Below, piece after piece: positions 12,494-23,304 of a DNA stretch of 33,621 nucleotides. Made by a program: the position numbers and the translations under genes. The notes under the pieces were generated by a model that saw nothing but the letters and a program-made list of their open reading frames with translations, ran no database searches and was not told the origin of the DNA. Source of the DNA: Gemmatimonadota bacterium (lineage in GTDB: Bacteria > Gemmatimonadota > Gemmatimonadetes > Gemmatimonadales > Gemmatimonadaceae). Every line of letters starts with the position of its first letter. The first letter of the stretch is position 1. The stretch is from NCBI GenBank assembly GCA_947504615.1, contig CANNKR010000003.1, positions 1 through 33,621 on the forward strand, given 5' to 3'.

Positions 12494-15046
12494 GTGCCGG
12501 CGCCCAGACTTCCCATCGACGACGTCATTCCCGCCCTGCGCGATGCACTGCGCACGGCGCGGCACGCCGTGCTGGTGGCGCCGCCCGGCGCGGGCAAGAC
12601 CACGCGGGTGCCGCTGGCGCTGCTTGGGGAACCGTGGTGCACGGGGCGCGTGCTCGTGCTGGAACCACGGCGACTGGCCGCGCGCGCCGCGGCGCACCAG
12701 ATGGCGCGCCTGCTCGACGACGAGATTGGCGGCACCGTGGGGTACCGCGTGCGGCTCGAGTCGCGGGTCTCGGCGCGCACGCGCATCGAAGTGATCACCG
12801 AGGGGGTGCTCACCCGAATGCTGCAGGACGATGCCACGCTCGACGGCGTGTCGGCGGTGCTGTTCGACGAGTTCCACGAGCGCAACCTGCAGGGCGACCT
12901 CGGGCTCGCGCTCACGCTGCGCACGCGCGAGCTGGTGCGCGACGATCTGCGCCTGCTGGTGATGTCGGCGACGCTCGATGCCGCCCCGGTGGCCGCGCTG
13001 CTCGGCGGCGCGCCGGTGATCGAAAGCCACGGACGCCTGCACCCCGTGGAGACGCGTCATCGTCCGACGCGCGAGGGCCAGTGGATCGACGCGAGCGCCG
13101 CGAGCGCGGTGCGCGCCGCGCTGGCCGACGACGCGGGCGACCTGCTCGTCTTTCTTCCGGGTCAGGGGGAAATCGCCCGCACGGCGACCGCGTTGTCCGA
13201 CGTGGACGGCGCCATCGACGTGATTCCACTGTACGGCGCCATGCCGCTGGACGCGCAGGACCGGGCCATTCGCCCCAGCGCCGACGGGCGTCGCAAGGTG
13301 GTGCTGGCCACGGCGATCGCCGAGACCAGCCTGACCATTGAAGGGGTGCGGGTGGTCATCGACAGCGGGTTGTCGCGTGTGCCGCGCTTCGACCCCCGCA
13401 GCGGCATGTCGCGGCTGGCGACCACCCGCGTGTCGCGTGCGAGCGCCGACCAGCGGCGCGGGCGCGCCGGCCGTCTGGGGCCCGGCGTCTGTTACCGGCT
13501 CTGGGCCGAAGGCGACGACGCGCAGTTGCTGGCCCAGCGCACGCCGGAAATTCTCGAGGCCGATCTCGCGCCGCTGGCGCTCGAGCTGGCCGCGGCCGGC
13601 ATCGATGATGTGCGGTCGCTGGCCTGGCTCGACGCGCCGCCGCCCAGCGCGCTGCTGCAGGCGCGCACGTTGCTGCAGGAACTCGACGCCCTCGACGCCG
13701 GCGGCGCGAGCGCCGGCGGCGCGAGTACCGGCGGGGCGATCACCGCGCACGGCCGACGCATGGCCTCGCTGGGCGTGCATCCGCGGCTCGCGCACCTGGT
13801 GGCGCGCGGCGCGGAACTGGGGCACGGCGCGACGGCGTGCGACGTGGCGGCGTTGCTGGGGGAGCGCGACATCTTCAACCGCGAATCGGCCGAAGGCGAT
13901 GCCGACCTCGCCGACCGCGTGCGTGCCCTGCGCGACGCGGATTTTGCGCGCACACACCGTGCCGACCGCGGCCGCCTGCAGCGTGTGCGGCAGGAGAGTG
14001 ACGCGCTGCGCCGCGCCATCGGTGTGCCACGCGCTGCGCCGCATGGGGCGCAGCGCGACGCCGCCGCTCCGGATGATCGCATCGTGGGGCTGCTGGTCGC
14101 GCTCGCCTACCCCGACCGGCTGGCGAAGCAGCGCCCCGACGCGCCGGGCAAGTACCTGATGCGCAACGGGCGCGGCGCGACCTTCGCGGTGCCGCAGACG
14201 CTGGGCGCCGCCGAGTGGCTGGCCATCGCCGACGTGGACGGCGACCCGCGCGAGAGCCGCATCTGGATGGCCGCGGAGATCGATGCCGACGACGTCGCCG
14301 CGCACTTTGCCGCACACGGGTCCGACGAGGTCGTCCGCCACTGGGACGCCGACAAGCGCGTGCTGAAACTCTCGCGCGTCACGCGCCTGGGCGCCATCAC
14401 GCTGCGCGAGAAGCCGCTGCGCGCGCCATCGGCGGAGGACGCCGCCGCGGCGTTGCTCGAGGTGGCGCGCAGCGAAGGGCTCGCCGTGCTGCGCTGGGAT
14501 GAGCGCGCCACGCGCCTGCGGCAGCGGCTGGCCTTTGCGCATCGCATCGACGACGCGTATCCCGCGGTGAGCGACGATGCGCTGGCTGCGACAATCGACG
14601 ACTGGCTGCTCCCCGCCCTGCAGTCGCTCGGCACGCTGAATGCGCTCGCCAAGGTGGACGTGGCCGACGCGCTGCTGGCGCGACTGACGTGGAAGCAGCG
14701 CGAGCGACTGGACGCGCTGGCGCCGACGCACTGCACGGTGCCCAGCGGGTCGCACCTTCCCATCGACTACGCCGACGCCGAGTCGCCGGCGCTCGCCGTG
14801 CGTCTGCAGGAACTGTTCGGGCTGGCGGAGACGCCGCGCGTGGGCGATGGGCGCGTGCCGCTGACGTTGCAGTTGCTGTCGCCGGCGCAGCGTCCGGTGC
14901 AGGTGACGCGCGACCTGGCGGGCTTCTGGGCGCGCTCATACTTCGATGTGCGCAAGGATCTGCGCGGCCGGTATCCGCGGCACTACTGGCCCGAGAATCC
15001 GCTGGACGCCGAGCCGACGGCGCGCGCGAAGCGGCGCGGGACGTGA
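12494..15046 (+). CDS. hrpB: ATP-dependent helicase HrpB
   Basis: APPGAGKTTRVPLALL, LFDEFHERNLQGDLGLAL, MSATLDAAPVAALL, ATAIAETSLTIEGVRVVIDSGLSR, QRRGRAGRLGPGVCYRLW; C-terminal LTRDLAGFWARSYFDVRKDLRGRYPRHYWPENP-type ending. Confidence 0.95.
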   Translation: MPAPRLPIDDVIPALRDALRTARHAVLVAPPGAGKTTRVPLALLGEPWCTGRVLVLEPRRLAARAAAHQMARLLDDEIGGTVGYRVRLESRVSARTRIEVITEGVLTRMLQDDATLDGVSAVLFDEFHERNLQGDLGLALTLRTRELVRDDLRLLVMSATLDAAPVAALLGGAPVIESHGRLHPVETRHRPTREGQWIDASAASAVRAALADDAGDLLVFLPGQGEIARTATALSDVDGAIDVIPLYGAMPLDAQDRAIRPSADGRRKVVLATAIAETSLTIEGVRVVIDSGLSRVPRFDPRSGMSRLATTRVSRASADQRRGRAGRLGPGVCYRLWAEGDDAQLLAQRTPEILEADLAPLALELAAAGIDDVRSLAWLDAPPPSALLQARTLLQELDALDAGGASAGGASTGGAITAHGRRMASLGVHPRLAHLVARGAELGHGATACDVAALLGERDIFNRESAEGDADLADRVRALRDADFARTHRADRGRLQRVRQESDALRRAIGVPRAAPHGAQRDAAAPDDRIVGLLVALAYPDRLAKQRPDAPGKYLMRNGRGATFAVPQTLGAAEWLAIADVDGDPRESRIWMAAEIDADDVAAHFAAHGSDEVVRHWDADKRVLKLSRVTRLGAITLREKPLRAPSAEDAAAALLEVARSEGLAVLRWDERATRLRQRLAFAHRIDDAYPAVSDDALAATIDDWLLPALQSLGTLNALAKVDVADALLARLTWKQRERLDALAPTHCTVPSGSHLPIDYADAESPALAVRLQELFGLAETPRVGDGRVPLTLQLLSPAQRPVQVTRDLAGFWARSYFDVRKDLRGRYPRHYWPENPLDAEPTARAKRRGT

Positions 15047-15068: not shown

Positions 15069-15209
15069 AACACGGAGACCGGAGATAACGGAGGGCCACG
15101 GAGAACGACAACTGCAATAAGGGGGCGTGGGGGACAGGTCCGTCCGCCACACCCCCTCTGAGCTGTTGCAGTACTCCGTGGCCCTCCGTGCAACTCCGGT
15201 CTCCGTGTT
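15069..15209. repeat. Long-palindrome element, copy A (141 bp)
   Basis: Outer arms AACACGGAGACCGGAG / CTCCGGTCTCCGTGTT; inner arms ACGGAGGGCCACGGAG / CTCCGTGGCCCTCCGT; apical GGGGGCGTGGGGGAC / GTCCGCCACACCCCC. Confidence 0.92.
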
Positions 15210-15243
15210 AAAGCAACCAAACCCAGCCGAGACCGGTTCGTTC

Positions 15244-15384
15244 AACACGGAGACCGGAGATAACGGAGGGCCACGGAGAACGACCACTGCATAAAGGGGG
15301 CGTGGGGGACTGTACCGTCCGCCACACCCCCTCTGATCTGTTGCCGTACTCCGTGGCCCTCCGTGCTCCTCCGGTCTCCGTGTT
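15244..15384. repeat. Long-palindrome element, copy B (141 bp)
   Basis: Same architecture as copy A, start 175 bp later, 34-bp linker aaagcaaccaaacccagccgagaccggttcgttc between copies. Confidence 0.92.
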
Positions 15385-15409: not shown

Positions 15410-16327
15410 CTACACCAGCCAGCGCCGCGTGGTATCGAGCAACTCCTGGTACGGCGCGCCGAATTTCTTCAGCAGGTAGCGTTCCTCGCGCAACACCACC
15501 CCCCAGTGCAGCAGCGCCCACGACGGGACGAGCAGCACCAGGTCCCACGGGTTGTTGCGCAGCACCCCCACACCCGCCTGCGCCAACAGGAACCCCAGGT
15601 ACATCGGATTGCGCGTGAAGGCGAAGGGCCCGCCGAGCACGAGCGCTCGCGGCGCGCGCCACGGCACCGCCGGCGTGCGCCGCTTCACGAAATGCTCGTG
15701 CGCCCAGTACGCCAGCCCCGCGCCGGCGGCGATGAGCACGAACCCCGTCCAACCGGGCCAGCCCAGCCGCCACGTGATGCCACTGAAGTGGCTCAGCCCC
15801 TCGCCGAGCAGCAGCGCGGTGATCGGCACGAACGGCGCCGGCAGCAGCACATTGGCCACTGCCTCCTTCTGCAGCGCGAGCATCGCCACCTGCCCCGCAT
15901 GATACGCGAGATGCTGCACCACACCATCGAGCATCGTGGTGCGGCTGTACCCGCGCTCACCCACCGGCGCCGCCAGTTCGTCGGCCGTCATCACCGACAC
16001 CCGAGCAGCCAGTTGCTCAATGGCGTCGCCGAGTCGCGCCACGTCCTGCGCCCACTGTTCCGCGCTCACGGCCGACGGATCGGGGAACTCCTCGCCGTCC
16101 GGGGGATCGCACGACGGGTCGTCGAGGCGCAGACGCGGCGTGTCGACCCAGGTCGTGAGGTGCCGCAGCAGCTGCCACGGCGTGTGCGAGCTGCGTGCGC
16201 GACGCGACGCCGCCTGCGGCGCCGTGAGCCGAGCGAGCACCTCGGCCACCGATGGTCCGTGCCACGGCGCGCCGTTCCACGCGCGCCGCAACTCGGCGGC
16301 CAACCGTTCGCCCGGCGTCACCGGCAT
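15410..16327 (-). CDS. DinB-like domain fused to ICMT-like membrane methyltransferase domain
   Basis: N-terminal HTPWQLLRHLTTW...VVQHLAYHAGQVAML (DinB metal-site pattern); C-terminal LVLGGPFAFTRNPMYLGFLLAQAG...EERYLLKKFGAPYQELLDTTRRWLV (ICMT/PEMT family). Confidence 0.8.
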   Translation of the reverse strand: MPVTPGERLAAELRRAWNGAPWHGPSVAEVLARLTAPQAASRRARSSHTPWQLLRHLTTWVDTPRLRLDDPSCDPPDGEEFPDPSAVSAEQWAQDVARLGDAIEQLAARVSVMTADELAAPVGERGYSRTTMLDGVVQHLAYHAGQVAMLALQKEAVANVLLPAPFVPITALLLGEGLSHFSGITWRLGWPGWTGFVLIAAGAGLAYWAHEHFVKRRTPAVPWRAPRALVLGGPFAFTRNPMYLGFLLAQAGVGVLRNNPWDLVLLVPSWALLHWGVVLREERYLLKKFGAPYQELLDTTRRWLV

Positions 16328-17704: not shown

Positions 17705-18823
17705 CTACCGCGTCGCCCCCCGGGCGCTCACTGGCCACAGCGCTTCGACCACGCCGCGCCGCACGCAGACGAACCAGTCGTGCAGGTTGACCGTCGGATC
17801 GCAGTGGCCGGGCACCAGGAGCAGTTTTTCTCCCAGGGCGGGAGTCGCCGCACCGGGAGCGACGGCAAAGACGAAGTGCTCGTCGGAGTCGCTGACGCAG
17901 GTCAACCCGTCCTGCTGCCACACCTGCGGTAGCCCCGAATCGACACTGACCGATTTGAGTCCGGCGTCGACCACGACGCGCACGGCAGCCGAACGGCTCA
18001 TCACCGTGCTCCACACGAACAGGCTCTGCTCGAACGGCGGCCAGGCGGCATCAAACTCGTTACGGTTGTAGTCGGCGTCCATGAAGATGTAGGAGCCGGG
18101 CTGCACTTCATCATAGGCGCCGCTCGCGAGTTCCAGCGGAAAGCTGCCGGTGCCCGCGCCAGTGACCGTCTCGCACGGAATGCCGCTCTGCTCGATCAAG
18201 GCGCGGGTCGAACGCACCAGTTCCACCGCACGGGTGATCACGTCGCGCCGGTCGGCAACGGTGCGCACGTGCTGGGCGCTGCCATGATACGCCTGCAGCC
18301 CGGCAAAGCGCAGATGGCGACTGTCCGCAACGGCGCGCGCCACCGCCAGCGCCGGCGCGAGTGCATCGGCGCCGCACCGGTTGCCGCCCACGTTGACTTC
18401 CACCAACGCGTCGAGCCGCACCCCGGCGCGCTCCGCCGCCGCTGCCACGTCCGCCACGTTCTCCACGGCATCGACGCAGACGGCGATCCGCGCCCCGCGC
18501 GCGAGGGCGGCAACGCGATCGAGTTTGTCGGCGCCCACGATTTCATTCGAGATCAACACGTCGGGCACGCCGCCCGCCACCAGCGCCTCGGCTTCGCTGA
18601 CTTTCTGGCAGCAGACCCCCACCGCGCCGGCCGCCATCTGACGCAGGGCGATCTCGGCGCACTTGTGGCTCTTGGCATGCGGGCGCAATCGCACGCCGCT
18701 GCCGCGCAGTGCATCGGCCATGCGGGCCACGTTGCGCTCGAAGGCGTCGAGGTCGAGGATCAGCGCCGGCGTATCGACGGCGGCCAGCGGCATCCCGACG
18801 GCACCCGGGGCGGAGATGGTCAT
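17705..18823 (-). CDS. D-threonine aldolase / D-serine dehydratase-like PLP enzyme (alanine racemase N-terminal fold)
   Basis: VDTPALILDLDAFERNVARMAD...LRPHAKSHKCAEIALRQMAAGAVGVCCQKVSEAEALV; C-terminal LLLVPGHCDPTVNLHDWFVCVR (metal-binding HxC motif). Confidence 0.9.
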   Translation of the reverse strand: MTISAPGAVGMPLAAVDTPALILDLDAFERNVARMADALRGSGVRLRPHAKSHKCAEIALRQMAAGAVGVCCQKVSEAEALVAGGVPDVLISNEIVGADKLDRVAALARGARIAVCVDAVENVADVAAAAERAGVRLDALVEVNVGGNRCGADALAPALAVARAVADSRHLRFAGLQAYHGSAQHVRTVADRRDVITRAVELVRSTRALIEQSGIPCETVTGAGTGSFPLELASGAYDEVQPGSYIFMDADYNRNEFDAAWPPFEQSLFVWSTVMSRSAAVRVVVDAGLKSVSVDSGLPQVWQQDGLTCVSDSDEHFVFAVAPGAATPALGEKLLLVPGHCDPTVNLHDWFVCVRRGVVEALWPVSARGATR

Positions 18824-18999
18824 GGAGAGAAATCCGCGAAGAAGTGGAGACGCTCAATTCTATGCTGCCGCCAGGCGCATCGCCCGCTCGCGTGGCGATC
18901 GCCCCGTCGCGGCGCCATCTTTTCTGCACGGCTCGAGTGGCCGCGATGCACGCTCCTGTTTCCCTGCAACACTTTCCCTTTACAATACGGAATCCTGCG

Positions 19000-21126
19000 A
19001 TGCCCGCCCGTTACCCGGCCCTGGCACTCTGCCTGACCCTCCTTGCCTGCAGCAGCCCCAAGCCGACCATGACCTTCACGTCCGACAATCCATTCGCCAA
19101 TCCGAGTCCCCTGCAGTACCAGGCCCCGGTATTCGACAAGATTCGCAACGAACACTTCCAGCCGGCGATCGAAGAGGGGATGCGCGTGCAGATCGCCGAG
19201 GTTGGTGTCATCGCCAGTGACACCGCGCGGCCGACGTTCGACAACACGATCGTGGCGCTTGAGCGATCGGGGCAGCTGCTGACGCGCGCGAACAGCGTCT
19301 TTGGCGCCCTCACGCAGGCGAACACGAGCGACACTCTGCAGGGGCTGCAGACGGAACTCGCTCCCAAGCTGGCGGCGCACTCCGATGCGATTCGCCTGAA
19401 CGCCGCGCTGTTCGCCCGCATCAAGACCCTCCACGACGCCCGGACCTCGCTCGGCCTCGACACGGTCCAGCAGTTCCTGCTGGAGCGCTACTACAAGGAT
19501 TTCGTGCGGGGGGGCGCGCTGCTCTCCGAGGCCGACAAGACCGCGCTGCGCGCACTGAACGAAGAGGAGTCCAAGCTCAGCACGGAGTTCCAGATCCGCC
19601 TGCTCGCGGCCACCAAGGCCGGGGCGCTCGTCATCAGCGACAAGGCCGAGCTGGCCGGCATGAGCGACGCGGACATCACCGCGGCCGCGGCCGCCGCCAA
19701 GGAACGGAAGCTCGAGGGCCAGTGGGTGCTGCCGTTGCAGAACACCACGCAGCAGCCGTACCAGGTGTCGCTCACCAATCGCGCCGTGCGCGAACGGCTC
19801 TTCCACGCCTCCACCACGCGCGCCCAGCGCGGCGACAGCAACGATACGCGGGCGCTCGTGCTGCGGCTCGCCGCCTTGCGGGGGGACCGCGCCAAACTGC
19901 TCGGGTTCCCAAGCATCGCGGCGTACGTGCTCGATGACCAGATGGCGAAGACTCCCGCGCAGGCGCTCAAGCTGCTGACCGACATGGTGCCCGCGATCAA
20001 CGCCAAGGTGGCGGCCGAGGCGGCCGCGATGCAGGCGCTCGTCGACCAGCAGAAGGGCGGCTTCACGATTGCCCCGTGGGACTGGCAGCACTACGCCGAG
20101 CAGGTGCGCAAGGCGCAGTACGCACTGGACGAGAGCCAGCTGAAGCCCTACTTCGAGCTCGATCGCGTGCTGAAGGACGGCGTCTTCTTTGCGGCGCATG
20201 AACTGTTCGGGCTCACGTTCGTGGAGCGCAAGGACCTGCCGGTCTACCACCCCGATGTGCGGGTGTTCGAGGTGTTCGACGCCGACAGTACGTCGGTGGC
20301 GCTCTGGTACTGCGACTATTTCAAGCGCGACAACAAGAGCGGCGGCGCGTGGGAGGGGAGCTTCGTCGACCACGCGGGGCTGCTCAAGGCCAAGGCGGTG
20401 ATCTACAACGTCGGGAACTTCAGTCAGCCGGCGGCGGGCCAGCCCGCGCTGCTGAGCTTCGACGAAGCCTCCACCATGTTCCACGAGATGGGACATGCGC
20501 TGCATGCGATGCTCGCGGACGTCGAATACCCGCGACTCACCGGCACGAACGTGGCGACGGACTTTGTCGAACTGCCGTCGACGCAAAACGAGCACTGGGC
20601 GCTCGACGCGCGCGTGCTGGCGAACTACGCCAAGCACTACCAGACGGGTCAGCCCATGCCGGCGGACCTCGTGTCGAAACTCAAGAAGGCGCGCACCTTC
20701 AACATGGGGTTCACGAGCAGCGAGGTGGTGCAGGCCATGCTGCTCGACATGGCGTGGCACACGCTGGCGCCCGGGGCGACGCAGAAGGACGTGGCCGCGT
20801 TCGAGGCGGCCGCGCTCACGCGCTTCGGCGTGGCCACGCCGCTCGTGCCGCCGCGCTATGAGACGCCGTACTTCGCGCACATCTGGGGTGGGGGCTACAC
20901 GGCCAACTACTACGCCTACATGTGGAGTGAAGTGCTGGCCGAGGATGCAAACGGCTGGTTCACCGAGCACGGCGGACTGACGCGCGCCAACGGGAAGCGC
21001 TACCGCGACATGATCCTCTCGCGTGGCGGGACCAGCAACGCCGATGTCCTCTACCGGGCATTTCGCGGGCGCGATCCGCAGGTCGGGGCCATGCTCGAGG
21101 CGCGGGGCCTCAAGACCACCCGCTGA
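19000..21126 (+). CDS. M3-family metallopeptidase (Dcp/oligopeptidase-like), predicted lipoprotein
   Basis: Lipobox-like LTLLACSS; active site TMFHEMGHALHAMLAD; HIWGGGYTANYYAYMWSEVLAEDA. Confidence 0.93.
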   Translation: MPARYPALALCLTLLACSSPKPTMTFTSDNPFANPSPLQYQAPVFDKIRNEHFQPAIEEGMRVQIAEVGVIASDTARPTFDNTIVALERSGQLLTRANSVFGALTQANTSDTLQGLQTELAPKLAAHSDAIRLNAALFARIKTLHDARTSLGLDTVQQFLLERYYKDFVRGGALLSEADKTALRALNEEESKLSTEFQIRLLAATKAGALVISDKAELAGMSDADITAAAAAAKERKLEGQWVLPLQNTTQQPYQVSLTNRAVRERLFHASTTRAQRGDSNDTRALVLRLAALRGDRAKLLGFPSIAAYVLDDQMAKTPAQALKLLTDMVPAINAKVAAEAAAMQALVDQQKGGFTIAPWDWQHYAEQVRKAQYALDESQLKPYFELDRVLKDGVFFAAHELFGLTFVERKDLPVYHPDVRVFEVFDADSTSVALWYCDYFKRDNKSGGAWEGSFVDHAGLLKAKAVIYNVGNFSQPAAGQPALLSFDEASTMFHEMGHALHAMLADVEYPRLTGTNVATDFVELPSTQNEHWALDARVLANYAKHYQTGQPMPADLVSKLKKARTFNMGFTSSEVVQAMLLDMAWHTLAPGATQKDVAAFEAAALTRFGVATPLVPPRYETPYFAHIWGGGYTANYYAYMWSEVLAEDANGWFTEHGGLTRANGKRYRDMILSRGGTSNADVLYRAFRGRDPQVGAMLEARGLKTTR

Positions 21127-21160: not shown

Positions 21161-21529
21161 CTACTCGGTCGGGGCGCCGGCGCTGGTCCAGTCCCTCCAC
21201 CCTCCCGCCATCGACGCCACGTTGGTGTAGCCCATCTGCTGCAGCGCATCGGCCGCGAGCACCGACCGAAAGCCGCCGCCGCAGTACAGGATGATCTCGG
21301 CGTTCTTGTCGGGCACCAGCGCCTCGATGTCGCGTTCGATCACGCCCTTCCCCACGTACTCGGCGCCCGCGGCGTGCCCCGCCGCCCATTCGGACTGTTC
21401 GCGCACGTCGATCAGGTGCGCCCCGGCGGACGCGCGCTCGCGCGCCTGCGCCACGGTGACTTCGCGCACGCGCGGGCGCATCGATTCAATGAGGGCCAGA
21501 AATCCCGGAGCGTGCACACGTCCTCGCAA
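21161..21529 (-). CDS. Rhodanese-domain sulfurtransferase (start codon uncertain)
   Basis: GAHLIDVREQSEWAAGHAAGAEYV, active-site loop ILYCGGGFRSVLAADALQQMGYTNVASMAGGWRDW. Confidence 0.9.
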   Translation of the reverse strand: MRGRVHAPGFLALIESMRPRVREVTVAQARERASAGAHLIDVREQSEWAAGHAAGAEYVGKGVIERDIEALVPDKNAEIILYCGGGFRSVLAADALQQMGYTNVASMAGGWRDWTSAGAPTE

Positions 21530-21603
21530 TGGTTGATGACGAGAGGAAAGTGCGCCGCTCGCGTCCCGGAGGGAAGTGCCGCGAAACGCGGGTCCGGTTC
21601 GTT

Positions 21604-21656
21604 CAACACGGAACTACGGGGTATGAGACGCAGGGCCACGCGAGTCCGGTTCGTTC
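21604..21656. repeat. Decayed / internally deleted copy of the long-palindrome element
   Basis: caacacggaactacggggtatgagacgcagggccacgcgagtccggttcgttc keeps the AACACGGA start and the linker end gtccggttcgttc. Confidence 0.7.
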
Positions 21657-21796
21657 AACACGGAGACCGGAGGCGCACAGAGGGCCACGGAGGACCGCGA
21701 AACCTTGAAGGGGCTTGTGCGGACGGTCCTGTCCGCCGAGCCCCTTTGAGTTGCTGTACTCCGCGGCCCTCAGTGTTCCTCGTGTTCCTCCGTGTT
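21657..21796. repeat. Long-palindrome element, copy C (140 bp)
   Basis: AACACGGAGACCGGAGGCGCACAGAGGGCC ... CTCCGTGTT with apical GCGGAC-ggtcct-GTCCGC. Confidence 0.92.
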
Positions 21797-21830
21797 ATAG
21801 AAACCGATCCCAGCCGGGTCCGGTTCGTTC

Positions 21831-21970
21831 AACACGGAGACCGGAGGCGCACAGAGGGCCGCGGAGGACGGCGAAAACTTGAAGGGGCTTGTGCGGACGG
21901 TCCTGTCCGCCGAGCCCCTTTGAATTGCCGTACTCCGCGGCCCTCTGTGTTCCTCGTGTTCCTCCGTGTT
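21831..21970. repeat. Long-palindrome element, copy D (140 bp)
   Basis: Near-identical to copy C, 174 bp later; identical 34-bp linker atagaaaccgatcccagccgggtccggttcgttc on both sides. Confidence 0.92.
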
Positions 21971-22004
21971 ATAGAAACCGATCCCAGCCGGGTCCGGTTC
22001 GTTC

Positions 22005-22148
22005 AACACGGAGACCGGAGGCGCACAGAGGGCCACGGAGGACGGCAACAGCAAATACTTTATGGGGTCGTGGCGGGAAGTACTGTCCGCCGAGCCCCTT
22101 TGAATTGCTGTACTCCGTGGCCCTCCGTGGACCTCCGGTCTCCGTGTT
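22005..22148. repeat. Long-palindrome element, copy E (144 bp, mosaic)
   Basis: Left outer arm like C/D, right outer arm CTCCGTGGCCCTCCGTGGACCTCCGGTCTCCGTGTT like A/B. Confidence 0.9.
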
Positions 22149-22224
22149 GAATGACTCGATCTCGAGTGAATGACTCGATCTCGAGTGAACGACTCGATCC
22201 CGAGTGCCCGACCCGATCCCGGGT
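22149..22224. repeat. Four tandem 19-bp palindromic units (GAATGACTCGATCTCGAGT family)
   Basis: Units at 22149, 22168, 22187, 22206; each has ACYCG..CGRGT arms. Confidence 0.92.
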
Positions 22225-22245: not shown

Positions 22246-23304
22246 CTAGCAGATCCGCGGCAACTGGTCGCCCGGCAGCAGGTCCACCACCCGCGTGCCG
22301 CCCAGCGCCGTGCGCAACGCCACCAGGCGCGGGTGCGCCGCCACCACCGCGCCTATGCGCACCGCCCCCTCGCCCAACGGGTGCGCGCGCAACGCCGAGA
22401 GCGCCTGCTCCGCGCCGGAGGCCGGCACGAAGGCCACCAGCACGCCTTCGTTGGCCACATACAGCGGGTCCAGTCCCAGCATCTCGCACGCCGCACGCAC
22501 ATCGCCGGGCACCGGCAGCGCGCCCTCGTCGATCTCGATCCCCACGAGCGACGCCACCGCGATCTCGTTGAGCGCACTCGCCACGCCGCCACGCGTCGGG
22601 TCGCGCAGCACGTGCACATCCACACCGGTGGCGCGCAGGTTGTCCACCAGCGGAAAGAGCGCCGCGCTGTCGCTGGTGATCGCGCTCTCGAACGACATCC
22701 CCTCGCGCGCCGCCATGATCGCCATGCCGTGACGGCCGATCGCGCCGCTCACCAGGATCACGTCGCCCGGGACCGCGCGCGTTGGCGACGGCCGGAAGGT
22801 GGGGTCGATCACCCCAACACCGGTCGTGTTGATGTACAGCCCGTCCGCCTTGCCGCGCTCCACCACCTTGGTGTCGCCCGCGACAATCGGCACACCGGCC
22901 TCGCGCGCCGCGCGCGCCATTTCCACGATCACGCGGTCCAGCACGTCCAGCGACAGCCCTTCCTCGATGATGAACCCCGCGGTCAGGCACACGGCGCGCG
23001 CGCCCATCATGGCCACGTCGTTCAGCGTGCCATGCACCGCCAGCGACCCGATGTTGCCCCCCGGAAACTCGAGGGGCTGCACCACGAAGGAATCGGTGGA
23101 GATGGCAATCTCGCCGCCCGTCACGTTCACAATGGACGCATCACCCAACTGCGCCAGCGCGGGGTTCTCGAAGTGCGGCAGGAAGTGGCGCGCCACCAGC
23201 TGCGCGCTGAGCCGCCCGCCCGACCCGTGTCCCAACTGCACCCGGTCGTTGGCCTCCAGCGGCACCGGGCACTGCAGCGCCACGGGATTCCCCGGCGACG
23301 TCAC
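22246..23304 (-). CDS. hypE: Hydrogenase expression/formation protein HypE
   Basis: [60 protein letters not shown]-terminal LPRIC; GTG start overlaps hypD stop (GTGA). Confidence 0.95.

Follow-up and report, generated by a model that had tools for sequence, protein, structure and literature searches.

Two arrays of palindromic repeats in a 33,621-nucleotide stretch of a Gemmatimonadota genome (contig CANNKR010000003.1; hereafter the window) belong to a dispersed family of REPIN-like, non-autonomous palindromes that are probably moved in trans by a GxxExxY nuclease. There is good support for the palindromes being mobile. We observed their placement behind genes, the lack of a detectable target duplication, interchangeable arms, and tandem arrays. 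These repeats are the species-specific version of an inverted-repeat superfamily that crosses phyla, and ends of this superfamily bracket GxxExxY genes. The role of the nuclease in moving the palindromes is what we infer from these observations.

The array of copies C, D, and E was analyzed in greatest detail. A repeat search of the window sequence places the three palindromes, each ~140 bp long, at starts of 21657, 21831, and 22005 (spacings 174 and 174 bp), as the original prediction had stated. Identity is 95–97% between copies 1 and 2 and 81% between copies 1 and 3. Linkers C-D and D-E match at 34/34 positions and match the linker of the other array, A-B (15210–15243), at 28/34, confirming that they are identical to each other and similar, at the same length, to the distant one. 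Local tandem duplication accounts for the linker identity within this array. Both hairpins folded are very stable, with z scores of -7.9 (21657–21796) and -11.1 (22005–22148) and equal stability in 0/200 shuffles each. The fourth, “decayed” copy did not hold up, as it is merely a solo left end of family D5 (27 bp, 52 bp upstream of the array) plus a few similar bases and not a whole decayed palindrome. On the other side, the last copy is directly followed by four tandem 19-bp palindromes (GAATGACTCGATCTCGAGT) that resemble repeated outer arms. See Table 1 for the coordinates of all features.

Table 1. Repeat features and neighboring genes at the two arrays of the window
Feature	Position	Strand	Basis
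hrpB-like helicase gene, 3' end faces array A-B	12494..15046	+	PF08482; empty sites
Copy A, palindrome core	15069..15209	+	
Linker A-B	15210..15243	+	28/34 identical to C-D
Copy B, palindrome core	15244..15384	+	
PEMT/DinB gene, 3' end faces array A-B	15410..16327	-	PF04191, PF12867; empty sites
Rhodanese-domain gene, left of array C-D-E	21161..21529	-	Pfam PF00581
Solo left end (formerly “decayed copy”)	21586..21612	+	27 bp, 96% identical to end at 21638
Copy C with both outer 15-bp arms (core 21657-21796), T1...T2 unit	21642..21811	+	Repeat, fold
Linker C-D: right outer arm of C + AGCC + left outer arm of D	21797..21830	+	
Copy D, palindrome core, T1...T2 unit	21831..21970	+	97% identity to C
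Linker D-E, same as C-D	21971..22004	+	34/34
Copy E, palindrome core, T1...T1 unit, mixed centre types	22005..22148	+	Fold, end typing
19-bp tandem units resembling outer arm	22148..22223	+	Family D3
AIRS-domain gene, hypE-like, beside hypD; 3' end faces array C-D-E	22246..23304	-	PF00586/PF02769, neighbor HypD

As judged from the sequence, the repeat unit is a palindrome of ~170 bp that includes its outer 15-bp arms. It had been proposed that the unit is a palindrome plus a separate linker; instead, the window linker (ATAGAAACCGATCCC + AGCC + GGGTCCGGTTCGTTC) consists of the 15-bp outer arms of two adjoining copies with 4 bp between them, and it is not separate cargo, because copies that stand alone have these arms at both ends. 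We took 37 further copy-bearing stretches of the window’s own genome (G000) to study the anatomy. Most inter-copy linkers measure 34–40 bp and are made up of two adjoining outer arms and a few additional bases. Alignment of 56 outermost ends gives a boundary of about GGGATTCGGTTCTTTC, then AACACGGAGACCGGAGG.GC.CGGAGGGCCACGGAGTACGGCAAC, and the sequence is single-copy beyond ~15 bp outside AACACGG. Each arm is a CACGGAG-like word repeated imperfectly four times, and a nested hairpin forms the centre of the element. There are two end types, T1 (GGAGACCGGAG) and T2 (GGAGGAAAACGAGGAAC), and units are mostly T1...T1 or T1...T2, with end orientation alternating along the arrays, as do the end spacings of about 140 bp and 34–61 bp. 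A strict array grammar, with T2 at internal right ends and T1 at outer ends, is a tendency only and is broken by 15069–15384 and by two further loci (L026 and L028). The unit at 22005–22148 combines halves of different centre types. Furthermore, in a pairing test, two halves from the same unit paired no better than halves taken from separate units; therefore, the palindrome belongs to the family consensus rather than being maintained within individual copies. Integron attC sites were considered and dropped because the copies are dispersed, have 34-bp linkers, and carry no cassettes.

Beyond the window, the rest of the genome holds many further copies. The G000 assembly spans 3.15 Mb in 323 contigs and is 87.7% complete, and its end motifs number 112 forward and 97 reverse, compared to 2 and 3 for a reversed-pattern control. 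This corresponds to roughly 100 copies genome-wide, bearing out the dispersed, amplified element of the original prediction. Linkers are related across loci as well, with a mean identity of 0.54 between arrays, 0.78 within arrays, and 0.31 when shuffled. Neither an absence of further copies nor unrelated linkers elsewhere, either of which would have spoken against such an element, was observed. Many contigs begin or end in or beside arrays (e.g., C23, C39, C64, C84, C102, C143, and C289), so the true copy number is probably higher, and the arrays longer, than estimated.

We analyzed placement in 42 sampled clusters, a sample of the G000 copies, using genes called by a simple codon-usage script. 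None (0/42) overlaps a called gene. Elements are intergenic and usually lie just past gene ends, typically 20–45 bp behind a stop codon. Among the 18 clusters with both neighbors called, none is in a divergent gap, compared to 16 divergent gaps out of 67 longer than 60 bp (P = 0.003), and eight are in convergent gaps (P = 0.002). In sister species G001, convergent gaps hold 16/28 clusters (P = 2e-5) and divergent gaps hold four.

Comparison with sister species shows the empty sites at both window arrays, one of the checks suggested at the outset. The hypE-rhodanese gap measures about 35–150 bp in nine sister species versus 716 bp here, and the convergent gap between hrpB and the PEMT/DinB gene measures 6–36 bp in eight sister species versus 363 bp here. 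These short empty gaps indicate that both window arrays are insertions in this lineage. The search for target-site duplications, also suggested, covered lengths of 2–9 bp in 24 bounded clusters and detected none in excess of the shuffled expectation. Adjoining the array is a 3.5-kb block (17705–21126) with a D-serine dehydratase-like gene (17705–18823) and an M3 peptidase gene (19000–21126). The genes flanking this block are adjacent in most sister species; the block was either gained in this lineage or lost elsewhere.

The ~40-bp arm is common to sister species at the DNA level. Their elements have an outer arm of TTTTTCACCACGGAG[AG]CACGGAG and a palindrome of similar size, and each species has its own homogenized version of the end: TTCAACACGGAGACCGGAG in G000, TTCACCACGGAG[AG]CACGGAG in G001 (38 forward and 38 reverse), TTCATCACAGAGACAC[AG]GAG in G005 and G008, and CTCACCACGGAG[AG]CACGGAG in G002. 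No such ends were found in G003 and G007 at the stringency used. A 38-mer of the own-type arm had no match in the genome contig collection, so we used a generic end, CACCACGGAG-N-CACGGAG, for the wider search. Its 23-base form matched at least 119 contigs from at least ten phyla by record title. The taxa include Gemmatimonadota, Acidobacteriota, Planctomycetota, Bacteroidota, Verrucomicrobiota, Chloroflexota, Myxococcota, Desulfuromonadaceae/Geobacteraceae, Nitrospiria, Methylomirabilota, Latescibacterota, and Pseudomonadota. Some of these records are MAGs, and single phylum assignments may be binning errors, but the overall spread is not. The generic ends mostly form inverted pairs 40–170 bp apart. 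A literature search for the end sequence as text gave no match.

In G001, the gene between two neighboring elements encodes a PDDEXK_3/GxxExxY nuclease (PF13366, TIGR04256). A profile built from this nuclease found GxxExxY genes between inverted motifs in several motif-selected contigs of other phyla. PF13366 is present in 42/50 motif-bearing genomes and in 8/11 genus members, with three genes in G000. We then looked for a generic end within 260 bp of each locus. PF13366 loci have one on both sides in 18/46 cases and on one side in 6/46, compared to 0/50 for Y1 control loci and, for shifted positions, 0/79 on both sides and 1/79 on one side (P = 2e-7 and 1e-9 for both-sided bracketing against Y1 and shifted controls, respectively). 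Only two of the both-sided loci (L322 and L333) come from genomes picked via the nuclease flank itself (L119, L064). Additionally, GxxExxY genes not chosen by motif were analyzed. The gene is rare on plasmids (five records), and only two viral contigs carry it; four of these seven have inverted flanks scoring ≥16. One such flank is TTCACCACAGAGGACGCAGAGGACACGGAG in Bacteroides finegoldii, and others are differently spelled but similarly built runs, e.g., CGGAATAAACGGAATAAACGGAA. Nuclease relatedness matches end sequence weakly across 21 loci (Mantel r = 0.28, p = 0.035). On a Sphingomonas parapaucimobilis plasmid (NZ_CP155749.1), a GxxExxY gene lies between fabD and fabG (L371), 33 bp behind the former and 2 bp before the latter, as if inserted into the fatty-acid operon.

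The strict generic-end test does not score G000, as its ends are a divergent version. However, inverted own-type ends were found on both sides of a GxxExxY gene in this genome. Contig C294 (L317) has an intact gene at 147–539 on the minus strand, a complete own-type element at 587–742, 48 bp upstream of the gene, and an own-type end (CCGTGTTAAAGAAACCGG) directly past its stop codon. This nuclease and the neighboring AraC-type gene align with the G001 locus, which is orthologous. G000 and two sister species each have a GxxExxY gene next to elements at one orthologous locus. The other two of the three G000 genes adjoin a different repeat. They are near-identical paralogues (L312:1089-1459 and L305:1-210, on contigs C64 and C68) preceded by a 160-bp tandem repeat that contains the palindrome GGATAACGGCCGA...TCGGCCGTTATCC, which suggests that a separate repeat family may accompany other copies of the nuclease. 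A further spelling, CCACGGATGACACGGAT...ATCCGTGTGCATCCGTG, occurs beside GxxExxY genes at L310, L311, and L324 (in the sister species G003 and G004 and in G063). PF13366 is present without the ends described here in G003 and G004.

The GxxExxY protein matches the TIGR04256 profile at 132 bits (cut-off 35). Residues D74 and K86 of the catalytic site are invariant, and E84 is nearly so. An AlphaFold2 model (mean pLDDT 93) adopts a PD-(D/E)XK fold. The nearest solved folds are SSO0001, a Cas4 protein, then LHK-Exo and lambda exonuclease, yet at TM-scores of only about 0.5 and 10–21% identity; the predicted fold thus bears a modest similarity to these enzymes and does not indicate membership in their families. 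The literature searched, which left out most subscription journals, mentions GxxExxY/PF13366 only incidentally, in three papers, and an earlier description is possible.

Elements also crowd around the nuclease gene. On a 700-kb contig of G001, elements occupy 8/12 of the eligible gaps that lie no more than 10 kb from the nuclease (P = 2e-6, an approximate value because the 28 occupied gaps include four divergent ones, which fall outside the eligible set). This crowded zone also holds dnaN and rpmH and is near the GC-skew minimum, and five loci of the window’s own genome (L024, L026, L030, L037, and L048) map to it, at 260–315 kb. In G093, a member of another genus, 5/9 motif matches (≤1 mismatch) fall in a 60-kb stretch ending at the GxxExxY gene, and two of the five bracket the gene. 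Clustering at oriC as such was rejected: the G001 zone adjoins dnaN, but the G093 elements are near the nuclease with no dnaN match in the 100 kb read around it. The two cases together, and they are two only, indicate that crowding follows the nuclease rather than the origin. No crowding of elements was seen around the GxxExxY gene of Longilinea.

Because the same ends bracket the nuclease gene in many phyla, the nuclease is a candidate mover. The palindromes have entered gaps behind stop codons with no detectable target duplication. We propose that the GxxExxY nuclease, acting in trans, would cut or resect at the repetitive ends, and the palindromic ends may then fold back or switch template. 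The template-switch step is borrowed, by analogy, from the Rpn nucleases (PMC5350276). A new copy would be joined at a nearby gene end, and copies would in this way accumulate around the nuclease gene. As read from the sequences, tandem arrays then grow as whole units are duplicated, and copies exchange halves. Whether GxxExxY nucleases form a new mobile class, mobilizing their own inverted ends and palindromic derivatives in trans, transposase-free and across at least ten phyla, in convergence with RAYT-REPIN, seems to us an even question.

A real rival, which we consider possible but clearly less probable than movement by the nuclease, is that another enzyme or host replication and repair moves the palindromes, and that the GxxExxY gene is a passenger landing at, or carrying, their ends. 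In G000 and G001, the gene is indeed between two complete palindromes and not inside one, and G002 has elements with no PF13366 match. In other phyla, however, the gene sits within a single inverted pair with little else, the plasmid and viral genes not chosen by motif have inverted flanks with similarly built ends too, and elements crowd around the gene in two genera. A selected function is unlikely. Bidirectional terminators or mRNA 3'-end stabilizers, as RNA or DNA hairpins amplified for their usefulness, would fit the very stable hairpins, the short distance behind stop codons, and the enrichment in convergent gaps, but an Rfam search of the window gave no match, same-copy halves show no better pairing than halves from separate copies, and sister species do without the element at either window site. 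The elements may still affect mRNA ends as a side effect.

Known kinds of transposase are improbable movers as well. A REP/BIME family moved by a RAYT (Y1, HUH) that was lost or is missing from the assembly would share the alternating inverted ends, two spacer classes, intergenic position, tandem arrays, and absence of a target duplication, and an assembly that is 87.7% complete leaves some room for a missed gene. This reading is mostly refuted and very unlikely, as there is no Y1_Tnp in G000, in the element-rich G001 (99% complete), or in G002, G008, G093, G121, and G260. Moreover, the generic end flanks none of the 50 Y1 loci, whose inverted flanks are different sequences. PF01797 has no match in G000, and the presence of Y1 across the phylum does not follow the repeats; the check for a RAYT-like transposase elsewhere in the genome was thus negative, and the earlier statement that no transposase is nearby stands. 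Highly improbable is a MITE derived from an ordinary DDE insertion sequence: despite the terminal inverted repeats, small size, and intergenic spread, the 24 bounded clusters lack the 2–9 bp target-site duplication, and these ends were not seen on any insertion sequence.

If this is true, palindromic repeats of many phyla gain a candidate enzyme, and the common, functionally uncharacterized GxxExxY family gains a testable role. The REPIN lifestyle would then also have arisen a second time, independently, with an exonuclease-like enzyme replacing the HUH transposase. REP/REPIN elements and their RAYTs (REPtrons) consist of dispersed intergenic palindromes and an enzyme gene bracketed by the same repeats (PMC3116915, PMC3733652), and reviews of REP describe Y1 partners as well as untagged inverted repeats around Y1 genes (PMC3733652). 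The family described here is similar in having many dispersed intergenic palindromes, as singles and clusters, with species-specific ends and a bracketed enzyme gene. It is different in its boundary consensus, GGGATTCGGTTCTTTCAACACGGAGACCGGAG, which has no GTAG or CGTC tag and is not itself a 20–40-bp hairpin, and in having no Y1 transposase, as the bracketed gene encodes a PD-(D/E)XK nuclease. Like the Rpn nucleases (PF04754; PMC5350276), GxxExxY is a small PD-(D/E)XK nuclease, and RpnA has been proposed to promote RecA-independent joining via primer-template switching; the Pfam families are different, however, and the Rpn abstract names no bracketing repeat family (PMC5350276).

Two enterobacterial families complete the comparison. 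BIME arrays have ends that alternate in orientation and two alternating spacer lengths. The G000 arrays work like BIMEs, with ends of alternating orientation and alternating spacers (about 140 and 34–61 bp), but their sequence is unrelated, their units are much longer, and they have no RAYT. ERIC is an imperfect palindrome of ~130 bp found between genes, for which no transposase is known. The G000 elements are likewise imperfect palindromes between genes; unlike ERIC, to which they are unrelated in sequence, they belong to a family that spans phyla and has a candidate nuclease partner.
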